Of a stretch of 64,000 nucleotides of DNA, positions 5,067 to 62,464 are shown piece after piece (within the stretch, counting starts at the first letter, position 1; every line of letters starts with the position of its first letter). The translations under genes were made by a program, and so were the position numbers. The DNA is from Beijerinckiaceae bacterium (GTDB lineage: Bacteria; Pseudomonadota; Alphaproteobacteria; Rhizobiales; Beijerinckiaceae), in the NCBI GenBank assembly GCA_030684835.1, contig JAUXWZ010000036.1, positions 62,001-126,000 on the forward strand, in the 5' to 3' direction. The notes beneath the pieces are model-generated. The model did not search any database, was not told where the DNA came from, and worked only from the letters and a program-made list of their open reading frames with translations.

Positions 5067-6047
5067 ATGCGCGCCATGATGCGCTTTACGGCAGCGTCAC
5101 TGCTGTCTGTCTGGACTGCTAATGTCGCGTGTGCGCAGACGCCAGCGGGCCAATACCCGCAACGCGCGGTGAAATTCGTGCTGCCGTTCGGCCCGGGGTC
5201 CGGTTCCGACATCGCCGCGCGCCTGATTGCGGACAAGCTGCAGGCCAAATGGGGCAAGCCAGTCATCGTGGAACCGAGACCGGGCGGCGACGGATTGATC
5301 GCGATCAACGCGTTCACCGGCGCGCGGGACGATCATACGCTGCTCTTTGCTTCAACGGCGTCCTTCATAGTGCATCCCTACACACTGCAATCAAAACCAC
5401 CGTACGACCTGGATCGGGACCTCGTTCCCATCGTGCGAGCAGTCGATTCAGGGCTGGCGGTCGCGCTTTCGACCGGATCTGGCGCAAGCACCCTGAAAGA
5501 ATTCGTCGATCTGGCGCGCAAGAACCCCGGCAAACTCAATGTCGCGGGCGGCGCTGGCCTGGCTGAACTCACCGTTCGGGCCTTCATCGTTGAGCAAAAA
5601 CTCGACGTGACCGTTGTCCCCTACCGGGACATCATCCAGGCTGGCGTCGATCTTGCGGAAAACCGCATTCAACTTGTTTCAGCCTCTCTGAGCATGCCGA
5701 TGCCCCACGTGCAGGCCGGCAAGGTGAAAGTCGCCGCCATCGCCGCGCCGCGCAGAACTCCGCTCGCGCCCGAAATTCCCAGCGCCCCGGAAGCCGGATT
5801 TTCAACGCTGGGTTATGAATCAACCATCGGGCTCTATGGCCCGCCCGGCATGACGCTTGAGCTTCGCAAACGCATAGCCGCGGACGTGATAGAAGCGTTA
5901 AATGATCCTGTGGTGACAAAGCGATTGTTCAGCGCGGGGATGGCCGTCAATGCGCAAGGGCCGGAAGAGCTGGCCGAGACTGTGACCCGACAGAAAGCCG
6001 CAACCGCGCGCCTTGCCGACATTCTTGGCGTGAAAGCGAAAAACTAA
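5067..6047 (+). CDS. Classical Bug-type solute-binding protein (copy 3, different subfamily)
   Basis: A 326-residue TctC-family protein that belongs to the classical Bug branch rather than the branch of the other nine copies here. The mature start QYPQRAVKFVLPFGPGSGSD and the VIVEPRPGGDG loop are typical, and the second domain has the usual LNVAGGAG and VVPYRDI elements. The signal peptide ends at ACA-Q near residue 24. A good GGGAGG site lies 7 bases before the ATG. The next gene is an LLM flavoenzyme 51 bases downstream, so the binding protein probably feeds that oxidative step. The ligand is unknown. Confidence 0.92.
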   Translation: MRAMMRFTAASLLSVWTANVACAQTPAGQYPQRAVKFVLPFGPGSGSDIAARLIADKLQAKWGKPVIVEPRPGGDGLIAINAFTGARDDHTLLFASTASFIVHPYTLQSKPPYDLDRDLVPIVRAVDSGLAVALSTGSGASTLKEFVDLARKNPGKLNVAGGAGLAELTVRAFIVEQKLDVTVVPYRDIIQAGVDLAENRIQLVSASLSMPMPHVQAGKVKVAAIAAPRRTPLAPEIPSAPEAGFSTLGYESTIGLYGPPGMTLELRKRIAADVIEALNDPVVTKRLFSAGMAVNAQGPEELAETVTRQKAATARLADILGVKAKN

Positions 6048-6098
6048 ACCGCCCCCGTGAAGGCCGCGCCGTACGCCAAATAGAAAGTGGAGAGAGAA

Positions 6099-7220
6099 AT
6101 GACCCCGGGCCGCTACCAGATGTACAACGACAATTCCTTCAAGCTGGGGCTGTTCGGCGCCAATTGCTCTTCGGGCCGCGCCATCAATATGACGCCCGAG
6201 CGCTGGCTGGCGGACTGGGCAAGTTGTTCGAAAATGGCCAAGATTGCCGACGAAGGCGGGATCGATTTCATTCTGCCGATTGGTCGGTGGAAGGGTTACG
6301 GCGGACCAACAAACTTCCAGGGCTCAACCTACGAGACGGTAACATGGGCGAGCGGCCTGCTTGCGCAGACAAAGAACATCACGGTGTTTGGCACCGTGCA
6401 TGCGCCGATGTTCAACCCGCTTGTCGCGGCCAAGCAAATGGTGACGGCAGACCATATCGGTAACGGACGGTTTGCTCTGAACGTTGTCGTTGGGTGGAAC
6501 GGGCCGGAATTCGACATGTTCGGCGCCGAGCAGCGCGAACATTCCGAACGCTACCTCTACGCGGAAGAATGGATTTCCGCGATCAAGGAGATGTGGCGCA
6601 ACCCCGAGCCGTTCGACTACGACAACAAATATTTGCACATGCACAACGTGGTGTCCGAGCCAAAGCCGTTCGGCGGGAGCCACCCTTTCATCATGAATGC
6701 GGCGGCGTCTGACGTCGGGCGCGATTTCGCGCTGCGGCACTGCCATGGCTTTTTCACCAGCTTCCGCGAATTCGACGTTCAAAGAGCAAAAGGCATTGTT
6801 CAGGGCATCAAGGAACAGGCGCGCGGCATCGGCCGCGAGATGGACGTCTACACACAGGGGCACATCGTGTGCCGTCCTACCCGCAAGGAGGCCGAAGACT
6901 ATTTCCATTACTTCACCACCGAGGCGGCGGACTTCGAAGCGATAGACACGATCCTGGCGTTGAAGGGCGTTACGCCCGAAAATACGCCTGATTTTGACGC
7001 TCGCCGCAAGGCGATTCCGCTGATGAATATCGGCTACCCCATCATCGGGACGCCGGATGACGTCGCCGAGAAGCTCGGTCGCATACATGGCGCGGGGATT
7101 TCCGGGATTGCGTTTTCGCTGGTGAATTACGTCACCGAACTGCCTCTTCTCACGGAGGAATTGCTCCCGCGCCTTGAGCGCATGGGCATGCGGGCGCCAC
7201 AGGCGGCCATGGCGAGCTAA
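6099..7220 (+). CDS. LLM-class flavin-dependent oxidoreductase
   Basis: A 373-residue luciferase-like monooxygenase of the bacterial luciferase / alkanesulfonate monooxygenase fold, which uses reduced FMN supplied by a separate reductase. Visible features are the FGTVHAPMFNPL strand, the DHIGNGRFALNVVVGW segment and a C-terminal GTPDDVAEKL, all standard for the family. It resembles the RutA/SfnG/DszA-like group more than SsuD. A GTG at 6087 would add four residues, but the ATG at 6099 follows GGAGAGA and is preferred. It sits between a Bug gene and a class II aldolase fold gene. The substrate is unknown. Confidence 0.9.
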   Translation: MTPGRYQMYNDNSFKLGLFGANCSSGRAINMTPERWLADWASCSKMAKIADEGGIDFILPIGRWKGYGGPTNFQGSTYETVTWASGLLAQTKNITVFGTVHAPMFNPLVAAKQMVTADHIGNGRFALNVVVGWNGPEFDMFGAEQREHSERYLYAEEWISAIKEMWRNPEPFDYDNKYLHMHNVVSEPKPFGGSHPFIMNAAASDVGRDFALRHCHGFFTSFREFDVQRAKGIVQGIKEQARGIGREMDVYTQGHIVCRPTRKEAEDYFHYFTTEAADFEAIDTILALKGVTPENTPDFDARRKAIPLMNIGYPIIGTPDDVAEKLGRIHGAGISGIAFSLVNYVTELPLLTEELLPRLERMGMRAPQAAMAS

Positions 7221-7231
7221 GTTCGGTCCAC

Positions 7232-7277
7232 CTGACCTTGCCGCCGCGCGCTTGCAAGGGCGCGGCGGCAAGGTCAG
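7232..7277 (+). promoter_or_regulatory. Very stable intercistronic hairpin
   Basis: Seventeen bases at 7232-7248 pair perfectly with 7261-7277, extended by one pair (7249-7260), around a loop that is itself partly self-complementary (CTTGCAAG). No T-tract follows, so it is not a standard intrinsic terminator. It lies 12 bases after the LLM stop and 39 bases before the next start, a position typical of mRNA-stabilising or processing hairpins within operons. Confidence 0.6.
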
Positions 7278-7316: not shown

Positions 7317-8021
7317 ATGAGTTTCGCCTCGTCCCTGGAGCTTCGCTCCGAGATCGTGCTCGCCTGCAAGGTGCTTTCGTATTTCGGCATCGTCGAAGGA
7401 TTCGGGCACGTCAGCGCGCGCGTCCCCGGAAGCGACCGCGTCATCATCACCCCTCGCATCGCGTTGGGGCTGGTGGAAGAAAACGATCTTTGCGAATTCG
7501 ATCCCTCGGGCAAGCAAGTTGCAGGCGACGCGCGCCCGCCGCTTGAAACAGCAATGCATCTTGGGGTTTACAAGGCCCGCCCCGATGCGAAGTCCATCGT
7601 GCGCGGCCATCCGCGTAACGTCGCTGCCTACGCCTGCGCGGGCGAACCGCTCAAGATCGCGCACGGCTTTGGCGCCAATCTCGGCCATGTCGTGCCGGTG
7701 TTCGACCAGCCGTTCCTTGTTACCCATGACGACATGGGCGGAGGCGTGGCCAAGGCGATTGGCGACAATGTCGGGGTCATTTTGCAATCGAACGGCATGC
7801 TCGCCGTAGGCCAGTCCGTGCCGCATGCAAGCGTGATGGCGCTGTTCATGGAAGAGGCCGCGCAATTGCAATTGATGGCGCACGCCGCCAGCCTGACGCC
7901 GAAGTTCTATTCACCGGAAGGCGCCGCGCGCCGTCACGGCGACGACCGCGAACACGAACCGATCCGCGCGTGGGATTATTACGTCGCTGTCACTGAAGGT
8001 CGCATCCGCATCGCGCGCTGA
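7317..8021 (+). CDS. Class II aldolase/adducin-fold protein with altered metal site
   Basis: A 234-residue protein of the class II aldolase/adducin superfamily. GHVSAR near residue 31 and the acidic residue E77 (PPLETAMH) match the family. The zinc triad does not: where canonical members have HxH it reads R96-G-H98, and where they have the third His in NHG it reads SNG with N159. Only one of the three usual His ligands remains. It may therefore be a decarboxylase, dehydratase or binding member without the normal zinc site, or use another metal geometry. The start follows GGAGA. It is followed after 32 bases by the GS-like ligase, probably in the same operon. Confidence 0.85.
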   Translation: MSFASSLELRSEIVLACKVLSYFGIVEGFGHVSARVPGSDRVIITPRIALGLVEENDLCEFDPSGKQVAGDARPPLETAMHLGVYKARPDAKSIVRGHPRNVAAYACAGEPLKIAHGFGANLGHVVPVFDQPFLVTHDDMGGGVAKAIGDNVGVILQSNGMLAVGQSVPHASVMALFMEEAAQLQLMAHAASLTPKFYSPEGAARRHGDDREHEPIRAWDYYVAVTEGRIRIAR

Positions 8022-8053
8022 AGACGCCCGCTGCTTTCACGTCAGGATTGTCG

Positions 8054-9538
8054 ATGTCGTATGGATCAGGATTTATCGCCCGCCACGGCTTGTGGAGCGA
8101 CGATGATCGTCGGCTGGCTGAAGACATCATGCGCCGCGTTGAAGCGGAGAATTTAAATCTGATCCGCCTCGTCTGGGCCGATCCGCATGGCTATTCACGC
8201 GCAAAATCCCTGACAGTCGCGGGCATCAAAAGCGCCCTGGAAAGCGGCTACAACATCAACGTCGCCACGACGACGCTCGATTCCGCAGGCGCGCGGACAT
8301 TCTCATCCTTTGTGCGCGGCGGCGGCATGGGGCTGGACGAGATGACGGGTTCGCCGAACCTCACCATCGTTCCAGATCCCACGACCTTTCGCATTCTGCC
8401 ATGGGCGCCGCGCACAGGGTGGATTCTCTGCGACGAATATTTCAATGACGGGCACCCGTTTCATTTCTCGCCGCGTCAATTGTTGCGCAAGGCGCTGAAG
8501 CCCCTTGAAGCGCGCGGCCTGAAGCATGTCGTCGGGCTCGAGATCGAATGGTATCTGCTGCGCGTGGCGGGCGAACTGGGCCCAGACAATATCGGCGCGC
8601 CAGGCGTGCGCGGAAAGCCTATCGCCACCGCCCCCATCGAGCCCGGTTATCATTATCATTCTGAAACCAACATGGACCTTATGCAACCGGTGTTGAGCGC
8701 GCTCACCGATGGCTACGAGGCGCTTGGCCTGCCGCTGCGCTCGATCGAAAACGAATGGGGACCGGGGCAGGTGGAATGCACCTTCGCGCCGCGCGACGCG
8801 CTCACCGCCGCCGACAACGTGCTCATCTTCCGCACCGCGACGCGGCAAATCTGCCGGCGCATGGGCCATTTCGCAACTTTCATGACGCGGCCGGGCATCA
8901 AAGGCCTCTATTCGAGCGGCTGGCATTTGCATCAATCGCTGGTTGACGCGCGCTCGGGGCGTAACGTCTTCATGCCGGACACAGAGGGCGCATGTTTGTC
9001 GCCGACCGGCTTTAATTATCTGGGCGGGCTGCTTGAGCACGCCGTGCCTTCGGCGGTGTTTGCGACGCCAACGGTGAACGGATATCGCCGTTTCAAGCCC
9101 AATTCGCTTGCGCCTGATCGCGCATCGTGGGGGTACGACCATCGCGGCGCCATGGTGCGCGTACTGGGCGGGCCCGGCGATCCGGCGACGCGAATGGAAA
9201 ACCGCATGGGGGAGCCGGCGGCAAACCCTTATCTCTTCATCCTTTCGCAAATCGTCTGCGGCCTTGCGGGCATTGACGCAAAAAGCGATCCGGGCGCGCA
9301 GGACGATGAACCCTACGCCGCCAAGCGCACGCCGCTGCCCACTAATTTACTTGGCGCGCTCGCGGCGCTTGAAGAATCGAAGCTTTATCGCGACGCGCTC
9401 GGCGACGTGTTCATCGAGTACTATCTCAAGCTGAAACGCAACGAGGCAGGGCGCCATCAACGCTTCATGGAAACGAACGGGGGAGACCACGACGAGGTTT
9501 CCGAATGGGAACAGAACGAGTATTTCGACTTTTTCTAG
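8054..9538 (+). CDS. Glutamine synthetase-like gamma-glutamyl ligase
   Basis: A 494-residue glutamine synthetase superfamily member. The beta-grasp N terminus is followed by the catalytic core: LEIEW (metal-binding Glu pair), ENEWGPGQVE, SGWHLHQSL (equivalent to the GxHxHxS ammonia/ATP loop), a VNGYRRF loop and RMENRMGEPAANPYL. All key acidic residues look intact, so the enzyme should activate a gamma-carboxylate with ATP. Relatives include PuuA, isopropylamine ligase IpuC and the aniline ligase AtdA1; the sequence lacks the adenylylation-loop features expected for assimilatory GlnA. It is immediately upstream of a Rieske oxygenase, which suggests that an amine substrate is glutamylated first. 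The TTG at 8048 is an alternative start. Confidence 0.88.
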   Translation: MSYGSGFIARHGLWSDDDRRLAEDIMRRVEAENLNLIRLVWADPHGYSRAKSLTVAGIKSALESGYNINVATTTLDSAGARTFSSFVRGGGMGLDEMTGSPNLTIVPDPTTFRILPWAPRTGWILCDEYFNDGHPFHFSPRQLLRKALKPLEARGLKHVVGLEIEWYLLRVAGELGPDNIGAPGVRGKPIATAPIEPGYHYHSETNMDLMQPVLSALTDGYEALGLPLRSIENEWGPGQVECTFAPRDALTAADNVLIFRTATRQICRRMGHFATFMTRPGIKGLYSSGWHLHQSLVDARSGRNVFMPDTEGACLSPTGFNYLGGLLEHAVPSAVFATPTVNGYRRFKPNSLAPDRASWGYDHRGAMVRVLGGPGDPATRMENRMGEPAANPYLFILSQIVCGLAGIDAKSDPGAQDDEPYAAKRTPLPTNLLGALAALEESKLYRDALGDVFIEYYLKLKRNEAGRHQRFMETNGGDHDEVSEWEQNEYFDFF

Positions 9539-9562
9539 AGCCGCCCGATGGAGCCTACGCAT

Positions 9563-10939
9563 ATGTCAGGATTCGAAACCCGCGAGGCGCAGACGCCCGG
9601 TCACACGACCACCTCGTACGACTGGGATTTCCTCGTTCAGGACGACCGCGTCCACCGCTCGATCTATGCGGACCCGGAGATTTTCGCTGCCGAGATGACG
9701 CACATCTTCGGCAAGACGTGGGTCTACATCGCCCACGAAAGCGAGATCGCCAACCCCAACGATTTTGTGACGCGCAAACTGGGACTGAGACCCGTAATCG
9801 TCGTGCGCGATAGCGACGGGCGACTGCGTGTTCTCTACAACCGCTGCACCCACCGCGGAACGACATTGTGCCGGCAGGAGCGCGGCTCGGCGCGCAATTT
9901 TCAATGCCCCTACCACGGCTGGAATTTCGGCAACAACGGCAAGCTGCGCGGCGTGCCGTGGCCGGATGGCTATACGCAGGATATTCGTGACGAGCGTTTC
10001 AATCTGGCGCAGGTTCCTCGGGTGCAATCCTACCGCGGCTTCATCTTTGCAACGCTTAATATGGATGCGCCCGATCTACTTCACTGGCTTGGGCCCATCA
10101 CGCGGCCCATCGATGAATGGCTGGACAGAAATCCCGGCGGCAAGATTGTCGTGTGTGAGGCGAACCGCTTCAAGTACAAGGGAAATTGGAAACTTGCCTA
10201 CGACAATTCGTCCGACGGCTATCACGTCATTTATTCTCACCGCTCGCTCATCGAGACCGAGAACCGGATGACGGACGAGCCCAACAAGGGCATGGCGTAT
10301 TACAAGAACTCGCCGGACTCGCTGGCCATGTATGTGCAGTACATGGGCAACGGCCATCACTTCAAGGACAAGCGGCCGAACCTGCAACCACGCCCGGGCG
10401 GCCTCTGGGCGCTTGAATCGCTGCATCCGGGCATGGAATATTATGAAAGCGAATTCCGTAGCCGCTATGGCGAGCGCGCGGATTCGCTGCTCGACCTTGC
10501 GGGATCAGAGCCCGTGAACATCAACATTTTCCCAAACCTGTCCCTGCTTGGAAATCACATCCAGGTTTTTGAACCCGTCAGCGTCAACGAGACGAATGCG
10601 GTCTGGTACGGGACGCGTATCGAGGATGTAAACGGCGACATTGGCGACGCGCTTGAGGGCATCAACGCGCTGCGCATGCGCACGCAGGAAGGGTTTCCGA
10701 ATTTCGGTGAAGTCGATGACCTCGCCAATTTCGAACAGATCCAGCGCGGGCTCGATTGCCTTGAGGACGAGTGGATTTACATGAACCGCGGCTATGGCCT
10801 GCCCGACCGCATCAAGCACAATGCAGACGGCACAATATCAGGCCCCGCCACGGATGAAGTGTTCATGCGCGAATACATCAAGGAATGGAAGCGACTGATG
10901 AGCGGCCCGGCTCACTTGACCATCCAGCGGGAGCCATGA
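9563..10939 (+). CDS. Rieske non-heme iron oxygenase, alpha (large) subunit
   Basis: A 458-residue ring-hydroxylating dioxygenase large subunit. Counting from the ATG at 9563, the Rieske [2Fe-2S] ligands are C95-x-H97 and C115-x2-H118. The mononuclear iron motif is D218-x2-H221-x4-H226, matching D205/H208/H213 of naphthalene dioxygenase. An ATG at 9548 is possible, but GGAG at 9550-9553 favours 9563. The stop is 1 base from the start of the beta subunit. No ferredoxin or reductase gene is in the window, so electrons must come from elsewhere. The substrate is inferred only from context: an aromatic or amine-linked compound. Confidence 0.92.
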   Translation: MSGFETREAQTPGHTTTSYDWDFLVQDDRVHRSIYADPEIFAAEMTHIFGKTWVYIAHESEIANPNDFVTRKLGLRPVIVVRDSDGRLRVLYNRCTHRGTTLCRQERGSARNFQCPYHGWNFGNNGKLRGVPWPDGYTQDIRDERFNLAQVPRVQSYRGFIFATLNMDAPDLLHWLGPITRPIDEWLDRNPGGKIVVCEANRFKYKGNWKLAYDNSSDGYHVIYSHRSLIETENRMTDEPNKGMAYYKNSPDSLAMYVQYMGNGHHFKDKRPNLQPRPGGLWALESLHPGMEYYESEFRSRYGERADSLLDLAGSEPVNINIFPNLSLLGNHIQVFEPVSVNETNAVWYGTRIEDVNGDIGDALEGINALRMRTQEGFPNFGEVDDLANFEQIQRGLDCLEDEWIYMNRGYGLPDRIKHNADGTISGPATDEVFMREYIKEWKRLMSGPAHLTIQREP

Positions 10940-10940
10940 C

Positions 10941-11531
10941 ATGAGCGCGGAAATCAAGGACCCTTCACGCTCATCGTACTACGTCGATGGAGATTTCTAT
11001 CGCACGCTCATCGAGCGCTTTGACGACTGGCAGGACGACGCGCGCATCGTGAACGATCATATCGAGCGCGACATGTTTCGCGGCCTGCTGGAACGCGAGG
11101 CGCGTTTGCTCGATCAGCACCGATACGAAAGCTGGTTGAAAATGTTTACGCCCGAGTGCGTCTATTGGGCGCCGGGCCGTCCGGGCGGAGGCGACCCGCG
11201 CACCGAAATCGCGGTCATTTTCGACGATCGGCGTCGACTTGAGGATCGCATCTTTCGACTCTGCACCGGCTATGCATGGTCGCAGGCGCCGCGCTCACGC
11301 ACAGTGCGCCTCGTCACCAATGTTGAAGTTTTCTCGACGGAGGAAGCGAACCGCCGCATGGTGCGCGCCAATTTCATCATCAACGAATTCTGGGACAACG
11401 AGACGCGGCTTCTAACAGGATGGTGCGGCTACAACTTGCAGAATACGGTGGAGGGCTGGCTGATTCAGGCCAAGCAGATCAACCTAATCGACTGCGACCA
11501 GTGCATTCGTAACCCCAGCATCATTCTTTAA
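10941..11531 (+). CDS. Ring-hydroxylating dioxygenase, beta (small) subunit
   Basis: A 196-residue SnoaL-like/cystatin-fold small subunit of a two-component oxygenase. The central block LLDQHRYESWLKMF followed by YWAP is the signature of the AntB/BenB type beta subunits, and RTVRLVTNVEV follows the usual pattern. A GGGAG site lies inside the end of the alpha gene, so translation is probably coupled. Subunits of this type stabilise an alpha3beta3 hexamer. The next gene, an amidohydrolase, starts 42 bases later after GGGAGG. Confidence 0.92.
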   Translation: MSAEIKDPSRSSYYVDGDFYRTLIERFDDWQDDARIVNDHIERDMFRGLLEREARLLDQHRYESWLKMFTPECVYWAPGRPGGGDPRTEIAVIFDDRRRLEDRIFRLCTGYAWSQAPRSRTVRLVTNVEVFSTEEANRRMVRANFIINEFWDNETRLLTGWCGYNLQNTVEGWLIQAKQINLIDCDQCIRNPSIIL

Positions 11532-11573
11532 GCGACGCGAAAAGCGCGCAAATAAAACACGGGAGGCTCCACG

Positions 11574-12431
11574 ATGCGCAAGCCAAAATTCACACCGCCG
11601 CCAGGCGCCTGCGACACGCACTTGCACATCTATGGCCCATTTGACCGCTTTCCCCTGTCGAGCGACCGCGTCTACAATATCCAGCGCAGCGGAACGCTCG
11701 AAGATTATACTGCGCTCATGGATCAGCTTGGTCTCGAAAGGGCGGTCGTCGTCAATGGCGGCGGGAACGGCTACAACAACGCCGTGACTCTCGACGCCAT
11801 CGCCCGCTCGAACGGCAGGCTCAAGGGGCTTGCGCTCATCAAACCCGAGACCACAGACAACGAATTGCTTGCGCTCCATCAAGGCGGAATGACGGGCTTT
11901 CGCACGCGCGCCACCGGCCGGGGCGCACCCACCCTTGCAGAGGCCGCGCTCATCGCGGAGCGTGTGCGCGAATTCGGGTGGCACGTGGAGTTTCATGTGC
12001 GCTCGGTCGAAGACGCGCACGATGCGCTGCCGAACCTTCAGAGCATGGGTCTGCCTTATGTGCTCGACCACGTTTCCTATTTGGGACCGGAGCGCCCACT
12101 CAGCGACCCGCTTGCGCAAACCATTCTGCGAACTTTGCGGGAGGACGAGAAGTGCTGGGTGAATCTCTACAGTTTCTACCAGCGCTCGCACACCGGCGCT
12201 CCGGGCTATGCAGACATGATTCCCATCGTCCGCGCCCTCGTCGAGGCGGCACCTGATCGGGTGGTCTGGGGCACGAACTGGCCTCATGTCGTGATCGAGG
12301 TGGCTGATCCCGACAACGTGGACCTGATCGACTTCGTCTTCGACGCCCTGCCCGAAGACGATTTGCGCACACGCGTTCTGGCAACCAATCCCGCCCGCCT
12401 GTACGGTTGGCCCGCGTCTACGAGCGGCTAA
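11574..12431 (+). CDS. Amidohydrolase family 2 protein, LigI (2-pyrone-4,6-dicarboxylate hydrolase)-like
   Basis: A 285-residue TIM-barrel amidohydrolase. Visible elements are CDTHLH at the N terminus (first two metal or substrate His), a central EFHV, LDHVSY, and WGTNWPH near residue 238 with the catalytic Asp region further on (ADPDNVD). This pattern fits the LigI/predicted-TIM-barrel hydrolase group, which opens lactone rings such as 2-pyrone-4,6-dicarboxylate and often works without tight metal binding. It follows the Rieske subunits by 42 bases, consistent with a hydrolytic step after ring attack. The exact substrate is unproven. Confidence 0.82.
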   Translation: MRKPKFTPPPGACDTHLHIYGPFDRFPLSSDRVYNIQRSGTLEDYTALMDQLGLERAVVVNGGGNGYNNAVTLDAIARSNGRLKGLALIKPETTDNELLALHQGGMTGFRTRATGRGAPTLAEAALIAERVREFGWHVEFHVRSVEDAHDALPNLQSMGLPYVLDHVSYLGPERPLSDPLAQTILRTLREDEKCWVNLYSFYQRSHTGAPGYADMIPIVRALVEAAPDRVVWGTNWPHVVIEVADPDNVDLIDFVFDALPEDDLRTRVLATNPARLYGWPASTSG

Positions 12432-22807: not shown

Positions 22808-24052
22808 ATGATCGACCCCGTTCAACTTTATGCATGGCACTTCATGTCCTATCCGTACTTGCCTGCGGATTTTGACGAAAAGTATGATTCCGGCTGGGTG
22901 ACTGTGCCCAACAAGCTTTGGGACAAGGACCGCTCTCGCGGCCTGCTCAACACCTACATCGACCAATTAGCCTACGCGGACGAGCTGGGCTTCGACGGCA
23001 TGGTGCTGAACGAGCATCACCAGAACATTTACGGGCTCATGCCCTCCCCTAACATCATCGCCGCTGCGCTGACGCAAAGGACAAAGCGCGGCAAGATTGT
23101 CGTGCTTGGCAATCTGCTTCCGCTGCACGCCAATCCGCTGCGCGTCGCGGAAGAATACGCGATGATCGACAACATGAGCGATGGCCGACTCATTGCAGGG
23201 TTTGCGCCAGGGTCCGGCCCCGAGACGTTCAACTACAATGTTGCTTCAGCGCCTTCGCGCGATCAATTCTGGGAGGCGGTTGAGCTCATCCGTCAGGCTT
23301 GGACGCGCGAAGGCCCTTTCATGTTTGAGGGACATCATTATCCCCTCCGCTATGTGAACCCGTGGCCGCAACCCACGCAACGCCCTCATCCAGACATCTG
23401 GATTCCCGGCGCTCGCTCGCGCGACACGCTCACGCAGATCGCCAAGAACGGATACTGCTATTTCTTATCCTCGCGCAGTCACGGCAAGGACACTGCGAAG
23501 GCGGTCGATCGTTTCGCCGATACTTTGAAGGCGCATGGCGACCGGTATATGCCCAAGCGCATGGGCATCCTCATGTCGACATACGTGGCGGAAACAGACG
23601 CGATCGCGCAGGAAGAGTCGCGAGAGGGCATCTGGTACTTTTTGCGCAATTGCCTGAAGGGACATCAGCGCCGCGAAGGACGACAGCTCACCTTCGGCCC
23701 GGGCGTGCCATACATCCCGCCGAACGAGTTCCGCGATTATCTCGCGCAGTCCGACCCAACGACGCCACTTCTGGGCGACACACAAGACTGGGGCGATCTT
23801 CAGCGCGCGCAATCGATCATCGTCGGTTCACCGGATACAGTTTTTGAGCGCTTCATGAGCGTTCTGGAACACGCACCGGTCGGGCACCTACTGATTCAAT
23901 TCCACATGGGCAACATGTCTGACGAATGTGCGCGCAAGAGCATGCGCCTATTCTGGGACGAAGTGGCGCCGCGCCTGAAGAGGGAGACAGGCCGAATGTT
24001 CAACGAACGCTTCGGCCGCGACGAAGCCGCCCTTGAAGCAGTGAAGGCCTGA
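22808..24052 (+). CDS. LLM-class flavin-dependent oxidoreductase
   Basis: A 414-residue luciferase-like flavoenzyme, longer than the SsuD norm. It has GFDGMVLNEHH near residue 60, a typical bacterial luciferase-like active-site strand, DNMSDGRLIAGFAPG near residue 120, and a C-terminal VGSPDTVFERF segment followed by an extension rich in charged residues. It would need reduced FMN from an unlinked reductase. Eleven bases separate it from an alpha/beta hydrolase, so they are surely one operon. The pair could carry out oxygenation followed by C-C or ester hydrolysis. The start follows GGAAGG. Confidence 0.9.
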   Translation: MIDPVQLYAWHFMSYPYLPADFDEKYDSGWVTVPNKLWDKDRSRGLLNTYIDQLAYADELGFDGMVLNEHHQNIYGLMPSPNIIAAALTQRTKRGKIVVLGNLLPLHANPLRVAEEYAMIDNMSDGRLIAGFAPGSGPETFNYNVASAPSRDQFWEAVELIRQAWTREGPFMFEGHHYPLRYVNPWPQPTQRPHPDIWIPGARSRDTLTQIAKNGYCYFLSSRSHGKDTAKAVDRFADTLKAHGDRYMPKRMGILMSTYVAETDAIAQEESREGIWYFLRNCLKGHQRREGRQLTFGPGVPYIPPNEFRDYLAQSDPTTPLLGDTQDWGDLQRAQSIIVGSPDTVFERFMSVLEHAPVGHLLIQFHMGNMSDECARKSMRLFWDEVAPRLKRETGRMFNERFGRDEAALEAVKA

Positions 24053-24879: not shown

Positions 24880-24942
24880 TGCAGATTGTCGGCGTCTGAT
24901 CGGCAAGCTGAGAAGCAAAATAAGACTCCGGAAGGAAAGTTT

Positions 24943-25947
24943 ATGTCACGCCTGAGTTTCGGAGTTTGGACTCCAGCTCCGCAAGCAATCCGTCCCGATC
25001 CCCCGGTGCGGCCCTCCTTCGCCGCACTAACGCAATATGGCGGCGGCGTTGATGAATCCTATCTCTACGCTGTCGACGTTCTGCAGCGCGCCGAGGCGCT
25101 TGGATTCGAGATTACTCTTATAGCGCAACGCTATCTGGGCCCAGACCTCGACTCGTGGATACTTGCGACGGCGCTGGCGACGCAGACGAAGAAAATGAAA
25201 ATTATGGCGGCGCTCCATCCAGGTATTGCTGATCCGCGCATGGCAGCAAAGATGGGCGCGTCTATCGATCGGATCAGCGGTGGACGTTTCTGCATCAATA
25301 TCGTCAACGGACTGCGCAAGGACGAGTTCGCGATTTATGGTGACTGGCTTGATCAGGATCAGCCCCGCTATCGACGCATGAATGAGTTTATCCAGGTGAT
25401 GAAGGGATTGTGGACGCAGGACGACTACAGCTTCGATGGCGAATATTATGCAGTCAAAAACGGCCGACTGCCGACAAAGCCTGTGCAAAATCCGCATCCG
25501 CCATTTTATGCTGCAAGCCGCGTGGACGACGGCATGGATGTTGTCGCGCGTGAATGCAGCACATGGTTTGTCAATTACGACAAGGATAGGCGAAACTACG
25601 CTGCGAGCCTGAAGCGTATTGAATCCGAAATCGCTGTGATGCAAAGCCGGGTTGATGCGCTTGGCCGAACCATGACCTACGGCATCAATGCTCTTGTTTT
25701 GATCGGCGACACTGATGAGCAGGCTGAAGCGATGGCGGATGACCATGTTCGAGCTGTCGCCAGTGATCCCCTGACTGCAGTGGGCACATCGGGCGTCGGC
25801 GCAGCCCTCATTGGCACGCCGGCGACGATTGCCGAGCGCATCAGGATTTATCAATCGTTAGGCATCAGCCTCTTCATGTTGCACTTTTATCCGATGCGCG
25901 AAGGCATGGAGGAATTTGCCGAACGCGTTTTGCCGCTTGTGCGATAG
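24943..25947 (+). CDS. LLM-class flavin-dependent oxidoreductase (SsuD/SfnG-like)
   Basis: A 334-residue member of the alkanesulfonate/sulfone monooxygenase branch. Typical segments are SFGVWTP at the N terminus, HPGIADPRMAAKM near residue 87, SGGRFCINIVNG near 112 and the C-terminal LIGTPATIAERI. SfnG- and SsuD-type enzymes break C-S bonds with reduced FMN and oxygen, but family membership does not prove this here. A longer frame begins at 24886; the ATG at 24943 follows GAAGGAAAG and fits the family start. It precedes a Bug gene by 49 bases. Confidence 0.9.
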   Translation: MSRLSFGVWTPAPQAIRPDPPVRPSFAALTQYGGGVDESYLYAVDVLQRAEALGFEITLIAQRYLGPDLDSWILATALATQTKKMKIMAALHPGIADPRMAAKMGASIDRISGGRFCINIVNGLRKDEFAIYGDWLDQDQPRYRRMNEFIQVMKGLWTQDDYSFDGEYYAVKNGRLPTKPVQNPHPPFYAASRVDDGMDVVARECSTWFVNYDKDRRNYAASLKRIESEIAVMQSRVDALGRTMTYGINALVLIGDTDEQAEAMADDHVRAVASDPLTAVGTSGVGAALIGTPATIAERIRIYQSLGISLFMLHFYPMREGMEEFAERVLPLVR

Positions 25948-27049: not shown

Positions 27050-27398
27050 GCTGTACTCTCAAGTATGAATGACCGGCATCATACACCCGGGATACTAGAG
27101 GCATGACGGATAAATAACCCGCTAATTTGACGTCTGTCCGCTCCGCACGACGCTCGCATTAACGGCTGAGCCGCTTTTGCGCCAGCTCGTGGTACGGAGC
27201 GGATCACCAAAGGCTATCTGGTCGTTGATTAGTCCGAGTTGAAACCGGGCAAAATATAATCTCGAGGACGGTCTCTCGGATCGTTGGTGCAAGTTCCATC
27301 ACGGCTCGTGCTGAGATCTCCGAGGGGTCGCCGCTCACAAATTTGGCGCCAAAAGAAATAGGCGCCATGATGCGTTCAAAGACTTCAAGGGGGTGGAA
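27050..27398. other. Intergenic stretch before the MoCo hydroxylase operon
   Basis: This gap has no convincing gene. A small hairpin (GTATGA 27063-27068 with TCATAC 27079-27084) follows the Bug stop and could be a weak 3' end. On the minus strand 27204-27368 is a 54-codon ATG frame with a normal-looking composition, but it has no recognised family and might be a remnant. Confidence 0.4.
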
Positions 27399-28271
27399 AT
27401 GTCCGATGTTCGATTCGAAGCGCCGAGTTCATTATCGGAGGCTGTCAAAATTCTGGCAGGAGCCAAGGGCCCCAGCCGCGCCTTGGCTGGCGGAACAGAC
27501 CTTATCGTTCAAATGGAAAACGATCTCCTTGAGCCCGACCTGATCGTCGACATCAAGAAAATTCCGGAGCTGCGCGCAATCAAGCCGGAAGGCGGCGGCT
27601 TCCGCATCGGAGCGACCGTCACCAGCATGGAGATGATCGAGGATGCAAGCCTTTGCGCGAAATGGCCGGGTGTCATCGACGGCGTCAAGCTGATCGGCTC
27701 GATTCAGGTCAAAGGCCGCGCCACGATGGCCGGTAACCTGTGCAACGCCTCGCCCGGAGCAGACAGCGTGCCCCCGTTGGTGGCCGCCGGCGCTCTAGCC
27801 CGGATCGTCGGGCCGAACGGGACGCGCGAGAGCCCCGTCGAGAAAATCCCGGTGGGCCCGGGCAAGACATCGCTGGCTCCCGGCGAAATAATCGAGTCCT
27901 TTTTCCTGCCTGAGAGACCGCGCAATTCCGGCGACGCCTACCTGCGGTTCACGCCGCGCACGGAAATGGACATCGCTGTTGTTGGTGTTGCGATCAATCT
28001 AACGCTCGACTCTGCCGGCGTATGCACGCAGGCGCGTGTGGCGCTCGGCGCAGTCGCGCCAACTGTCCTCCTGGTGGACGAATGCGCCAACGCGCTCATC
28101 GGGACGCGCGTCGACGAGGCTGCAATCGACAAGATGGCGGCGGCCGCCGCCGCCGCATGCAAGCCGATCGACGACAAGCGCGGCACGCGCGAATTCAGAA
28201 TCAAGATAACGAGCGTCCTCGCGAAGCGGGTCGCACAGAAGGCGCTCGAGCGCGCGAGGCACACGGCATGA
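27399..28271 (+). CDS. Xanthine dehydrogenase family FAD-binding (medium) subunit
   Basis: A 290-residue CoxM-type flavoprotein subunit that passes electrons from the [2Fe-2S] subunit to an acceptor. The FAD-binding motif LAGGTDL lies near residue 31, and the second motif, TMAGNLCNASPGAD, near residue 110. The C-terminal CO_deh_flav_C domain covers roughly residues 180-288. A GTG at 27393 would add two residues; the ATG at 27399 follows AGGGGG. It overlaps the small-subunit gene by ATGA, so the three subunits form a tightly coupled operon. Confidence 0.93.
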   Translation: MSDVRFEAPSSLSEAVKILAGAKGPSRALAGGTDLIVQMENDLLEPDLIVDIKKIPELRAIKPEGGGFRIGATVTSMEMIEDASLCAKWPGVIDGVKLIGSIQVKGRATMAGNLCNASPGADSVPPLVAAGALARIVGPNGTRESPVEKIPVGPGKTSLAPGEIIESFFLPERPRNSGDAYLRFTPRTEMDIAVVGVAINLTLDSAGVCTQARVALGAVAPTVLLVDECANALIGTRVDEAAIDKMAAAAAAACKPIDDKRGTREFRIKITSVLAKRVAQKALERARHTA

Positions 28272-28747
28272 GCAAGAAACATCACATCACGACTATTGTG
28301 AACGGCGATGAGTACGAAGCGCTCTGCGAAACGCGGCATACGCTGCTGGACGTATTGCGCGACGAATTGCGGCTGACTGGAACAAAGGAAGGCTGCGCGA
28401 CGGGCGATTGTGGCGCGTGCAGCGTCATGATGGATGGTCGGCTAGTCTGCTCCTGCCTCGTGCTTGCCGTCGAGGCGGACGGCAAGTCGATCGATACAAT
28501 CGAGGGCATGGCGAGCGGCAATGAATTGCATCCACTTCAAACAAAGTTTCTCGAATTGAATGGATTGCAGTGTGGCATTTGCACGCCCGGCTTTCTGATC
28601 GCTGCGCGTGCTCTTCTCGAGCGCAACCCGGACCCGACGGAATCTGAAGCGCGTTACTGGCTAGCCGGCAATCTTTGCCGATGCACGGGCTACGACAAGA
28701 TCATCCGCGCAGTCCTTTCCGCGGCAGCCGAAATGCGAGGAGCATGA
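28268..28747 (+). CDS. Xanthine dehydrogenase family [2Fe-2S] (small) subunit
   Basis: A 159-residue CoxS-type iron-sulfur subunit. The N-terminal plant-type ferredoxin domain has its cluster Cys in GCATGDCGACS and a later Cys in VCSCL. The helical domain has CGICTPGF and NLCRCTGY, giving all eight expected cysteines. The start overlaps the FAD subunit stop by four bases. The frame runs open upstream only as a shadow of the preceding gene. The large-subunit gene begins 3 bases after the stop. Confidence 0.94.
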   Translation: MSKKHHITTIVNGDEYEALCETRHTLLDVLRDELRLTGTKEGCATGDCGACSVMMDGRLVCSCLVLAVEADGKSIDTIEGMASGNELHPLQTKFLELNGLQCGICTPGFLIAARALLERNPDPTESEARYWLAGNLCRCTGYDKIIRAVLSAAAEMRGA

Positions 28748-28750
28748 GTT

Positions 28751-31045
28751 ATGACGACCATTCTCAAGAAGCCCGGCTTCAATCCGGATCGCAAGTATAA
28801 GATCATCGGCACTTCGCCGGTGAAGCATGACGGGTTCGACAAGGTTACTGGGCGCGCAAAATTCGCGGCCGACGCTTTCCTGCCAGGAATGCTGGTTGGC
28901 AAGGTTCTGCGAAGCCCCCACCCCCACGCCATCCTGAAACGTATCGACACGACGCAAGCTTCGAAGGTTCCGGGCGTGAAGGCGATCATCACCCGCGATG
29001 ATTTTCCCGAGATCAAGCAGGGCACGGGCGGCGGCGACATGACGCGCTTGGCCATGGCCAGAGAGAAGGTTTACTGGGAAGGTCATCCTGTGGCGGCAGT
29101 GGCCGCTACCAGCGAATCCGCGGCAAAAAAAGCGCTGAAGTTAATTGAGGTCGAGTATGAGGTGCTGCCTCACGTGATCGATCCGGTCGAAGCGATGAGT
29201 CCGGACGCGCCCATCCTGCACGACTACATGCGCACAAAGGGCGCAAAAGGACCGGACGCGGAGAAACCCACAAACGTCGTCGAGCGGCATGCGCTCGGCA
29301 TCGGAGACGTGGACAAGGGCTTTGCGGAAGCCGACGTCATTGTGGAGGGTACGTTCGATACGAAGCCTATGCATCAGGGGTATATCGAGCTTCAATCTTG
29401 CGTCGCCAATTACTCCGATGACGGCCAGGTCGACCTGTGGTGCTGCACGCAAGCGCCTTGGGTCTATCGTGATCGCCTGACGGAAATCTTGAAAATCGAA
29501 TCCTCGAAAATCAGGATCCAGCAATCTGAGCTTGGCGGCGGATTTGGCGGCAAGACGACTTTCTATCTTGAGCCGCTCTCCGTTGTTCTTTCGCGAAAGG
29601 CGAAGTGCCCGGTCAAGATGACCTTGACGCGCGTCGAAGTCATGCGCGCGACGGGTCCGGTGTCCGGCACCCAGTCGACCATCAAAATGGGATGCAAGAA
29701 GGATGGCACAATCGTCGCCGTCGACTCGACGCTTGTTTTCCAGACCGGTCCTTATACTGGCTCAGCCTTCACGAACGCCCCGCAGGCGATGTTAACGCGC
29801 TACGATCTGAAGAACGTGCGCACCGTCTCCTACGAAGTGGTCTCGAACAGACCGAAGGTCAGCTCGTTTCGCGCTCCATGCGTGCCGCAAGTTGTGTTTG
29901 GCGTGGAGGGCCTGATCGATGAGCTTGCGACCAAGATCGGCATGGATCCAATCGAGATGCGTCTCAAGAACGCAATCGTCGAAGGACACAAGACGATCTA
30001 CGGCGAGACCTTCAATCGCATCGGTTTTGTCGAAACGCTTGAGGCGGCGAAGGCTTGCGATCACTATCGTGCGCCCGTTCCCAAAGGTCAGGCGAGAGGC
30101 ATCGCCTGCGGATTCTGGTTCAATCGTGGCGGTGAAACGACTGGCTCGATGAATCTGGCGCCAGACGGCACTGTGACGATTACGCTCGGGACCGCAGATG
30201 TTGCGGGTTCACGTATGTCCATGGCGATGATGGCCGCAGAAGAATTGGGGATCCCCGTCGATCGCGTGCGCGCGGTGCTCGCGGACACGCACTCGTTGGG
30301 CTACAACCGCGTCACAGCAGGAAGCCGCACGACCTTCTCGAGCGGCATCATCGTGGTCGATTCCGCTCGGAAAATCATCACCGAGTTGTGCCGCCGCGCG
30401 GCGAAGATCTGGAACGTGCCCGAGGAAGGCGTCGTCTTCGAAGATGGCGTCTGTCGCCCGGCAAGTTCCAACGTCGGCGAATTCGAGCCGCTGTCGATCA
30501 AGGACATCGCCCATAAGACGACGTACACGATGGGCTCCATCTCCGGCCATTCGGAAATGAACGTGACTGGCGCCGGACCCGGCTTCGCTGTTCACATTGT
30601 CGATGTCGAGGTGGACAAGGAAACCGGCCTCACGTCAGTCAAGCGCTACACGATTATTGAGGACGCCGGAAAAGCGATCAGTCCCGCACAAGTGGAAGGT
30701 CAGTTCCAGGGCGCCGCAGTGCAAGGGATCGGCTGGGCGCTTAACGAGGAATATGTGTACGGATCGGACGGGCGTCTTCAAAACCCGGGTTTCCTCGACT
30801 ACCGGATGCCCGTCGCCTCCGATGTGCCCATGATCGACACTGTTATTGTCGAGGTGCCAAATCCCAAGCACCCCTTTGGCCTGCGCGGAGTCGGCGAAGT
30901 GCCGCTGACGCCAGCGATGGCGGCGATCGGTAACGCCATTGGGCATGCAATCGGAATTCGTCCCCGATCTCTGCCGATGTCGCCACCGAAAGTGCTCGCT
31001 ATCATCGAGGAAGCTCGCGCACGCGGCGTTTTGCCGGCGGGCTGA
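28751..31045 (+). CDS. Xanthine dehydrogenase family molybdopterin-binding (large) subunit
   Basis: A 764-residue molybdenum hydroxylase catalytic subunit. GGGFGGK near residue 260 is the first Mo-pterin loop. The loop that reads AYRCSFR in form I CO dehydrogenase, AYRGAGR in form II and AFRGFGGPQ in xanthine dehydrogenase is SFRAPCVPQ here (near residue 373). The catalytic Glu is present in GVGEVPLTP near residue 716. It therefore catalyses hydroxylation of an unknown organic substrate, not CO oxidation by the known pattern. The M-S-L gene order and tight spacing show one operon. No XdhC-type maturation gene is seen in the window. Confidence 0.92.
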   Translation: MTTILKKPGFNPDRKYKIIGTSPVKHDGFDKVTGRAKFAADAFLPGMLVGKVLRSPHPHAILKRIDTTQASKVPGVKAIITRDDFPEIKQGTGGGDMTRLAMAREKVYWEGHPVAAVAATSESAAKKALKLIEVEYEVLPHVIDPVEAMSPDAPILHDYMRTKGAKGPDAEKPTNVVERHALGIGDVDKGFAEADVIVEGTFDTKPMHQGYIELQSCVANYSDDGQVDLWCCTQAPWVYRDRLTEILKIESSKIRIQQSELGGGFGGKTTFYLEPLSVVLSRKAKCPVKMTLTRVEVMRATGPVSGTQSTIKMGCKKDGTIVAVDSTLVFQTGPYTGSAFTNAPQAMLTRYDLKNVRTVSYEVVSNRPKVSSFRAPCVPQVVFGVEGLIDELATKIGMDPIEMRLKNAIVEGHKTIYGETFNRIGFVETLEAAKACDHYRAPVPKGQARGIACGFWFNRGGETTGSMNLAPDGTVTITLGTADVAGSRMSMAMMAAEELGIPVDRVRAVLADTHSLGYNRVTAGSRTTFSSGIIVVDSARKIITELCRRAAKIWNVPEEGVVFEDGVCRPASSNVGEFEPLSIKDIAHKTTYTMGSISGHSEMNVTGAGPGFAVHIVDVEVDKETGLTSVKRYTIIEDAGKAISPAQVEGQFQGAAVQGIGWALNEEYVYGSDGRLQNPGFLDYRMPVASDVPMIDTVIVEVPNPKHPFGLRGVGEVPLTPAMAAIGNAIGHAIGIRPRSLPMSPPKVLAIIEEARARGVLPAG

Positions 31046-61352: not shown

Positions 61353-62464
61353 CAGTTCTGTCCCAGGAGGCGGACACGCTGGCCGGGACGCAGCGTCTGC
61401 ACGCCCGCCGTGACAACGATCTCGCCAGGAGAGACGCCGCTCAAGAGCACCACCTCTGACGTCCGATGAAGGGCTACCTGCACATTTCTCTTGCTGACGG
61501 TGTTTGCTGCAGCATCGAAAATCCAGACGGCGGGCTGGCCCTCCAATCGCGCAAGGGCGCTCGGCGGGATGGAAATGCCGTCCGAGCCCTCAAGACGCAT
61601 CCGTCCGACTACGGTCGATCCAAGACGCATCTCAGGAGGCGAGTCGGACAGGCCGACGCGAATGCGGAACGCTCCGGTCGTTGGGTCTGCCTGGGGCGAT
61701 ACCTCGCGAACGCGACCGACCGTATTTACAGCTGGATCAATCGAAAGGGCGACTGTGACGGAAGCATCCCGACGACCACGAGAGAGTAGAGAGGCCGGAA
61801 CGTCGAAAACAGCGTCGCGACCTTCCTTGCGCGCAAGCCGCACGACCATCTGCCCCGGAGTAACGACTTGCCCAGCCTCCACGGCCCGGGAAGTGACCTC
61901 GCCCGGAGCATCAGCGAAGAGCGACGTATCATCAAGACGATTTTGCGCGATCAGGACCTGCGCATTGGCGGCGTCAACCTGCGAGCGCAGCGTGCGAACC
62001 ATCTGAACGACTTCATCATAGCGCATTCGTGTCGTAAATCCGCGATCGAGAAGCTGCCTCTGGCGAGCGTAATTGGCCTCGGCTTCCACAAGTTGGCCTT
62101 CGGCCGCAGACAAGGAGGCCTTCGCAGCGCGTAATGAGTTCCCTTCGTCCTGCGCGTCGAGTCTAGCAATAATTTGGCCAGGCTTCACGCGGTCGCCAAC
62201 ATTCACGAACCTCTCGACGACACGCCCGCCGATCCGGAAGCCTAGATCAACTTCAGTCTGGGCTTCAACCGTTCCCGAGAGGGTGATGACCTCTCCGCCT
62301 GCCCTTTCCTCCACAACAACGACACGTACAGGCCGGATTTCAGGCGCGACCTCACCGTCATTGCGATCACAACCACCCAACACCGACGTAGCGGCCAGCA
62401 CAGAAATGAAGAGCAAAGTTATCGAAATCCGCCTCGCGCCAGTTGCGCGAACAAAAACGTTCAT
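61352..62464 (-). CDS. RND efflux periplasmic adaptor (membrane fusion) lipoprotein
   Basis: A 370-residue HlyD/AcrA-type adaptor. The signal peptide ends in a lipobox (VLGGC, Cys at about 31), so it should be lipid-anchored. The lipoyl halves lie around VDLGFRIGGRV and VTSRAVEAGQVVTPGQMVVRL, separated by a coiled-coil hairpin (residues about 105-165). The beta-barrel and membrane-proximal domains follow. It is the first gene of the adaptor-pump-MFS operon. No regulator gene is adjacent. Confidence 0.92.
   Translation of the reverse strand: MNVFVRATGARRISITLLFISVLAATSVLGGCDRNDGEVAPEIRPVRVVVVEERAGGEVITLSGTVEAQTEVDLGFRIGGRVVERFVNVGDRVKPGQIIARLDAQDEGNSLRAAKASLSAAEGQLVEAEANYARQRQLLDRGFTTRMRYDEVVQMVRTLRSQVDAANAQVLIAQNRLDDTSLFADAPGEVTSRAVEAGQVVTPGQMVVRLARKEGRDAVFDVPASLLSRGRRDASVTVALSIDPAVNTVGRVREVSPQADPTTGAFRIRVGLSDSPPEMRLGSTVVGRMRLEGSDGISIPPSALARLEGQPAVWIFDAAANTVSKRNVQVALHRTSEVVLLSGVSPGEIVVTAGVQTLRPGQRVRLLGQN

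Follow-up and report, generated by a model that had tools for sequence, protein, structure and literature searches.

A ligase-oxygenase locus related to arylamine degradation systems

As far as the literature examined goes, glutamylation before ring dioxygenation is already known from a few systems linked to pollutants, several of which lie on plasmids. The closest are the AtdA1-A5, TdnQTA1A2B, Dca and NpaA1-A5 clusters and the sad genes (SadA/SadB/SadD) of Hydrogenophaga. In the Npa system, according to the accessible part of its report (PMC11335346), the ligase NpaA1 forms gamma-glutamyl-1-naphthylamide, and cells that have the Npa dioxygenase and lack NpaA1 convert this amide, not the free amine. 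The known substrate of the sad system is sulfonated, and the available portion of the publication (PMC5632844) suggests an unknown natural substrate. Here we analyse a stretch of 64,000 nucleotides (hereafter the window; positions 62,001 to 126,000 of contig JAUXWZ010000036.1, assembly GCA_030684835.1) from a Beijerinckiaceae bacterium. It encodes a glutamine synthetase (GS)-like ligase and a Rieske oxygenase within five same-strand open reading frames (ORFs) at 7317-12431, which lie where a preliminary description of this DNA had placed them:

7317..8021, + strand: class II aldolase/adducin-family protein (PF00596, Aldolase_II, 100.6 bits)
8048..9538, + strand: GS-like arylamine gamma-glutamyl ligase, kin of AtdA1/NpaA1/SadB (Gln-synt_C, 249.9 bits)
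9548..10939, + strand: Rieske oxygenase alpha subunit, AtdA3 kin (Rieske, 74.4 bits; Ring_hydroxyl_A, 51.9 bits)
10941..11531, + strand: Rieske oxygenase beta subunit, AtdA4 kin (PF00866, Ring_hydroxyl_B, 112.9 bits)
11574..12431, + strand: LigI / 4-sulfomuconolactone-hydrolase-like amidohydrolase, a lineage-specific addition (Amidohydro_2, 125.2 bits)

We anticipate, with a probability of roughly 55%, that these chromosomal genes would serve to glutamylate and then dioxygenate an aromatic amine, in all likelihood a carboxylated one of the aminobenzoate or aminophthalate type. The predicted coupling of ligase and oxygenase is well supported by sequence; an acidic aromatic amine as the substrate is what we infer. 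Like the Atd, Tdn, Dca and Npa clusters, the window has homologous ligase, alpha and beta genes in the same relative order, with shared charged residues and the same inferred chemistry. Unlike those clusters, the run has neither an AtdA2-type amidotransferase nor an AtdA5-type reductase, its ligase falls in a separate lineage, and the amine loop is polar and includes an Arg.

A third lineage of ligases

Among PDB sequences the window ligase scores 486.6 bits with NpaA1 (8wwu) and 175.6 bits with the runner-up, and NpaA1 chains are the first 13 structural matches of its predicted fold (mean predicted local distance difference test, pLDDT, 79.4). Twenty-five charged or Asn positions are identical across the window, NpaA1 and all rows of three ligase groups (27 window-type, the window among them, 5 Atd-type and 24 Sad-like). 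These positions, including the amine-pocket glutamates E234 and E236 (NpaA1 E232 and E234), bear out the earlier suggestion of a GS-like ligase with an intact active site. Identity to the ligases of five reference plasmid clusters of the Atd type, from JS3066 (Npa), pNB8c, pTB30, Hydrogenophaga PBL-H3 and Sphingobium YBL2, is 45-48%. We take the pNB8c and pTB30 clusters to be those named Tdn and Dca, the records themselves bearing generic product names.

One scan of genome contigs returned 31 loci, all titled as metagenome-assembled genomes and several on short contigs. We grouped 26 named loci (L003-L027, L032) with the window; the ligases of the other five (L028-L031, L033) are 35-41% identical. 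In a ligase tree of 63 rows, the 27 window-type rows lie on one side of a branch with 100/100 support, the five Atd-type rows also split off together (100/100), and the Sad-like rows are placed elsewhere. The partial L027, together with L001 and L034-L040 (which duplicate the window or named loci), was left out of the tree and of the pocket counts. On this 100/100 branch the window ligase belongs to a third lineage, apart from the plasmid-borne Atd/Npa and the Sad-like lineages. None of 183 plasmid records with a match shows at least 60% identity. Window-type ligases occur in 9 of the 51 genomes of a genus sample (seven being the same contigs as named loci), and 6 of the 51 hold a ligase at 46-49% identity, in the Sad-like range. 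At E <=1e-170, a class sample gave eight further matches in 385 genomes, and a phylum sample of 398 genomes gave none besides the window's own.

Two plasmid ligases of about 47-48% identity, from Nostoc and Rhodococcus (L066, L068), have no Rieske gene annotated alongside; the neighbours of the Rhodococcus ligase of this pair are an amidase, an amidotransferase and a transporter.

Ligase-alpha-beta as the conserved unit

The alpha gene directly follows the ligase gene in 25 of the 26 named loci, and beta follows alpha in 22; the four loci without beta (L004, L013, L019, L024) stop at the contig edge. The triad is also adjacent in 7/7 further genomes (L134-L140), which were not used for finding the pattern and from which L133 was dropped as the same contig as L022. 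Triad-bearing loci are titled as alpha- and betaproteobacterial. In the window the order of the ligase followed directly by Rieske alpha and beta was confirmed, and the likeness to the AtdA aniline route pointed out in the preliminary description holds in so far as the three proteins are kin of AtdA1, AtdA3 and AtdA4, with the triad kept in the 26 named loci as far as their contigs reach. That description had also called for a check of the neighbourhood of all five genes, of which only this core is kept throughout. The hydrolase is syntenic only in L003 (the G041 contig, 96% identical), and a class II aldolase gene lies less than 1 kb from the ligase in some lineages only (11 of 26 loci, six same-strand and five divergent), which rules out the five genes as a universal unit.

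The alpha and beta subunits are 41-45% and 34-40% identical, respectively, to the five Atd-type counterparts. Alpha contains the motifs CTH/CPYH and D-x2-H-x4-H (Rieske and mononuclear iron), a pattern found in 25 of 27 related loci. The two exceptions are L024, where the contig stops within the ligase gene, and L120 with its split alpha. The window thus has the two-component Rieske oxygenase of AtdA3/A4 kinship and, judged by its sequence, the GS-like ligase of an AtdA-type system.

Ligase and oxygenase could instead serve separate pathways, such as polyamine glutamylation beside an unrelated aromatic oxygenase, as GS-like ligases of the wider family do serve isopropylamine and putrescine use according to the accessible part of PMC11335346. 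We consider this very improbable, since the adjacency is kept across alpha- and betaproteobacterial-titled loci and both partners have relatives that form a proven pair.

Broken copies among the relatives raise the further question of whether the triad is decayed or non-functional. The ligase has one in-frame stop in L021 (2473-3951) and in L136 (G575), and alpha is split over two frames in L027 (1087-2351) and in L120 (G029; 5418-6836); L021 and L027 make 2 of the 26 named loci with an interrupted gene, and L136 belongs to the seven further genomes. These copies may owe their breaks to assembly errors, and the window's own triad is intact, with the conserved charged residues retained, so that its decay seems extremely unlikely.

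The amine-entry loop and the charge of the substrate

In NpaA1 the amine tunnel is lined by a loop of the neighbouring subunit (residues 68-81) and by W235, and M81 and V201 set the substrate range, M81 being decisive, as stated in the available sections of the report (PMC11335346). When aligned to NpaA1, this loop is hydrophobic in the five Atd-type ligases, with Phe or Val at 75 and Ile, Phe or Met at 81. In the window group, Thr 72, Thr 74, Leu 75, Arg 81 and His 202 (NpaA1 numbering) are each present in 27/27 rows; with Leu 75 and Arg 81 throughout, the group departs from the hydrophobic loop of the Atd type. In the window ligase, R83 corresponds to the M81 gate and H204 to L202, the residue next after the V201 position. 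Four of 20 group-diagnostic ligase columns fall within the 14-residue amine loop (hypergeometric p 0.0015). The set of seven further genomes has Arg 81 and Leu 75 in 7/7, His 202 in 6/7 (Asp in L139) and Thr 72 in 3/7. In the 24 Sad-like rows, which were picked by an adjoining SadA-like gene, Lys 75 is present in all 24, position 80 is basic in all 24, and His 79 is found in 23 rows; the one other row, the Novosphingobium SA1 ligase, has Asn at 79. It is plausible from these alignments that loop charge tracks substrate charge across the ligase groups. The group-wide change of the amine-entry loop, seen in the window group and in the further genomes, fits the earlier proposal of a variant for another amine.

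The substrate of the same two-step chemistry might instead be a neutral aromatic amine, for example aniline, an alkyl- or chloroaniline, or an aryl amine present in dissolved organic matter. The closest characterised relatives use aniline, chloroanilines and 1-naphthylamine, and the window ligase shares Tyr at the V201 position with 4/5 Atd-type ligases. Nevertheless, the loop of the window group is polar, with Arg at the tunnel gate in 27/27 rows and in 7/7 further rows, and decarboxylase-type genes neighbour the triad in several lineages, which makes a neutral substrate rather unlikely.

A sulfonated amine, 4-aminobenzenesulfonate, is another candidate for the same chemistry, in which case the LigI-like gene would encode a 4-sulfomuconolactone hydrolase. 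The sad genes, encoding the Rieske protein SadA and the GS-like SadB, carry out this step in Hydrogenophaga, according to the portion of PMC5632844 available, and the best-scoring model for the window hydrolase is indeed a sulfomuconolactone hydrolase. Its score with NCBIfam SlmHylase, however, is 174.8 bits, far below the cut-off of 500, and the gene is not conserved with the triad. The ligase also lies outside the Sad-like group and lacks the basic residues at 75 and 80. Our comparison was with the proteins of Novosphingobium SA1. The SA1 pair resembles the window in having a GS-like ligase beside a Rieske alpha, with no amidotransferase annotated alongside; it differs in that alpha precedes the ligase and belongs to another Rieske branch (24% identity to the window alpha, over part only), in that no beta is annotated, and in the basic residues of the loop. 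The window thus shows neither a SadA-type alpha upstream of a SadB nor a ligase of the Sad-like group, and a sulfonated substrate appears quite improbable.

SadA-SadB-like pairs are widespread (L042-L049, L051-L061, L031, L033, L067, L093), with alpha subunits 48-80% identical to that of SA1; the genus to which the window belongs has them as well (L052-L054, L060).

The hydrolase is LigI-like and adjoins beta in the window, as the preliminary description had it, although it accompanies the triad only in L003; a distant homologue (28%) lies about 4.6 kb upstream in L017. The LigI-like hydrolase and the amidohydrolase listed there as two proteins are one and the same gene. The protein shares the Amidohydro_2 fold and a conserved HxH with LigI (2-pyrone-4,6-dicarboxylate lactonase) and 4-sulfomuconolactone hydrolase, and scores 156-160 bits with LigI entries. 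Like the protein 4mup, it has Asn at the position of the LigI aspartate (Asp in 4d8l), which we take to be catalytic. Both this substitution and the SlmHylase score set it apart from the two named enzymes.

Neighbouring genes as possible clues to a carboxylated substrate

A class II aldolase-fold protein in the run, proposed earlier, is confirmed by the Aldolase_II match. Its best Foldseek match is 2z7b (an aromatic dicarboxylate decarboxylase; TM 0.79), followed by pyruvic oxime dioxygenases, and its score with NCBIfam PhtC is 76.3 bits, under the cut-off of 200. The fold is common to the HMPD decarboxylase Mlr6791 (2z7b) and PhtC-type enzymes, but the window protein is about 25% identical to the former and two of three canonical metal histidines are changed: each of the 7 same-strand copies, that of the window included, has RGH and (S/A)NG where HTH and NHG would be expected.

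Genes for putative decarboxylases adjoin the triad in other loci. In L005, L006, L010 and L020 the gene directly after beta encodes a homologue of proteins that are annotated as 4,5-dihydroxyphthalate decarboxylase, and in L022 such a homologue lies about 4 kb off. This post-beta protein was also considered as a reductase, a role that was rejected because it is NMT1-like. A UbiD-type gene lies directly upstream of the triad in L022 and its relatives L134 and L135; L022 further encodes a PcaD-like lactonase (241.6 bits, cut-off 255.85), and a LigB-type gene lies upstream in L023. Queries for class II aldolase, phthalate-type decarboxylase, UbiD and LigB (PcaD not among them) had no match in 14 Atd, Sad-like and other control loci. 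The flanks examined in L012, L014-L016, L018, L019, L021, L025, L026 and L032 have none of these neighbour types.

Several observations weigh against a carboxylated substrate or against the lineage as we draw it. Concerning the neighbours, the window class II aldolase keeps H98 and has R96 and N159 at the other two canonical positions, so that it does not have the three histidines, presumably all metal ligands, of a decarboxylase of this type, and 15 of the 26 named loci are without a nearby class II aldolase (4 of them with less than 350 bases upstream). The phthalate-type label is carried by 3 among the 60 of 196 plasmid records listed, at 37-41% identity, the other listed homologues being named ABC transporter substrate-binding protein or left nameless, and the post-beta protein has only weak SsuA-type NCBIfam matches, under cut-off. 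The best NCBIfam model for the UbiD-type gene gives 178.8 bits for a cut-off of 650. The decarboxylases looked for are absent from 5/7 further genomes (L136-L140), as is a LigB-type gene. The 14 control loci are few and mostly plasmid-borne. Concerning the loop, R83 and H204 were placed by alignment to NpaA1, the loop being poorly predicted in the monomer model (residues 73-102, pLDDT <50); L134 and L135, among the seven further genomes, are closely related to L022; and the SA1 pair was assigned to sad on the grounds of its organism and of the two genes found together. In the alpha tree, finally, branches are long and the window group does not emerge as a single clade separate from Atd, so that this tree failed as independent proof of a window clade. 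Distances within the group do correlate (ligase-alpha r 0.77, ligase-beta 0.76, alpha-beta 0.84, with 0/2000 permutations as high; window and 20 of the 26 loci, the partial L004, L008, L013, L019, L024 and L027 being excluded), as would also arise from linkage and shared ancestry.

Amidotransferase and reductase

The preliminary description had noted that an AtdA2-type amidotransferase and a reductase are absent, and homologues of both were indeed not found in the run. No AtdA2-like amidotransferase occurs in the 26 named loci (several on short contigs) or in the seven further genomes, and the best AtdA2 match in the window's own genome scores 45 bits. NpaA2 is dispensable in JS3066, according to the accessible part of PMC11335346. 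An AtdA5-like reductase is likewise missing from the 26 named loci, short contigs again included; one of the seven further genomes encodes one, at 28% identity and more than 4 kb away. Distant AtdA5-like homologues are found elsewhere in the window's own genome, on contigs C173 and C9. Hidden nearby partners were thus dismissed, as nothing of the kind lies in the run and no tie of the C173 and C9 homologues to the oxygenase was found. Besides these distant reductases the genome has candidates for ring cleavage, with two intradiol matches and seven of the LigB type, so that steps missing from the run could be supplied in trans.

On C173 (L117 2-1542), a SadA-like fragment at the contig end adjoins an AtdA5-like reductase on the opposite strand.

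Proposed pathway

In the pathway that we propose for a carboxylated aromatic amine, the ligase would link glutamate, through its gamma-carboxyl group, to the ring amine with consumption of ATP, a step for which homology is strong. By analogy with Atd and Npa, the alpha-beta oxygenase would then dioxygenate the amide at the carbon that bears the amine and at the adjacent one, with electrons presumably supplied by a ferredoxin and reductase encoded elsewhere. The adduct would collapse to a catechol with release of the glutamyl group, and thus no diol dehydrogenase would be needed. The resulting dihydroxy-aromatic acid could be decarboxylated or ring-cleaved, for which the class II aldolase-family protein is a weakly supported candidate, as is the LigI-like hydrolase after ring cleavage. 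In the aromatic catabolism of another bacterium the class II aldolase DhbB decarboxylates a ring-cleavage product, as described in the available part of PMC6362003, so the class II aldolase here could also act after ring cleavage.

More tentatively, with this triad uncultured alpha- and betaproteobacteria may harbour a third chromosomal lineage, undescribed so far and probably older than the others, which would take carboxylated aromatic amines through a gamma-glutamyl amide to a dihydroxybenzoate and on to decarboxylation; we regard this fuller scheme as possible rather than probable. The literature search, with subscription papers mostly outside its scope, returned no description of this lineage or of a glutamylation route for aminobenzoate. 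If true, a chromosomal branch across uncultured bacteria would point to a natural function of glutamylation chemistry and would tie ligase loop residues to substrate charge over three groups. It would also add a natural degradation route for carboxylated aromatic amines beside the aniline and sulfanilate routes, and provide marker genes for environmental aromatic-amine turnover.

Transcription unit and surrounding genes

The gaps along the five-gene run are 26, 9, 1 and 42 bases. The ligase ORF starts with TTG (8048) and has a second in-frame ATG at 8054; the alpha ORF has an additional ATG at 9563. One structural feature precedes the run:

7232..7277, no strand assigned: strong hairpin, inverted repeat I1, between a luciferase-like gene and the run

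The 70-base stretch containing it has a predicted energy of -47.2 kcal/mol (z -7.0; 0/200 shuffles equally stable), and the close relative L003 has a degenerate copy at the corresponding position. From its position and its recurrence in L003, the hairpin is probably a transcription-unit boundary, with the run beginning its own unit.

Ten ORFs within 34 kb (window 918-34225) resemble, by eye, solute-binding proteins of the tripartite-tricarboxylate type, and seven of the ten have a PF03401 match with E <=1e-6. The ORF lists showed no recognisable TctA/TctB partner, though no search aimed at these partners was made. The gene immediately upstream of the run (window 6087-7220) encodes an SfnG/RutA-like luciferase-like monooxygenase, one of three luciferase-like monooxygenases within 20 kb (the others at 22808-24052 and 24886-25947), and genes for a CO-dehydrogenase-type molybdenum hydroxylase lie at window 27393-31045.

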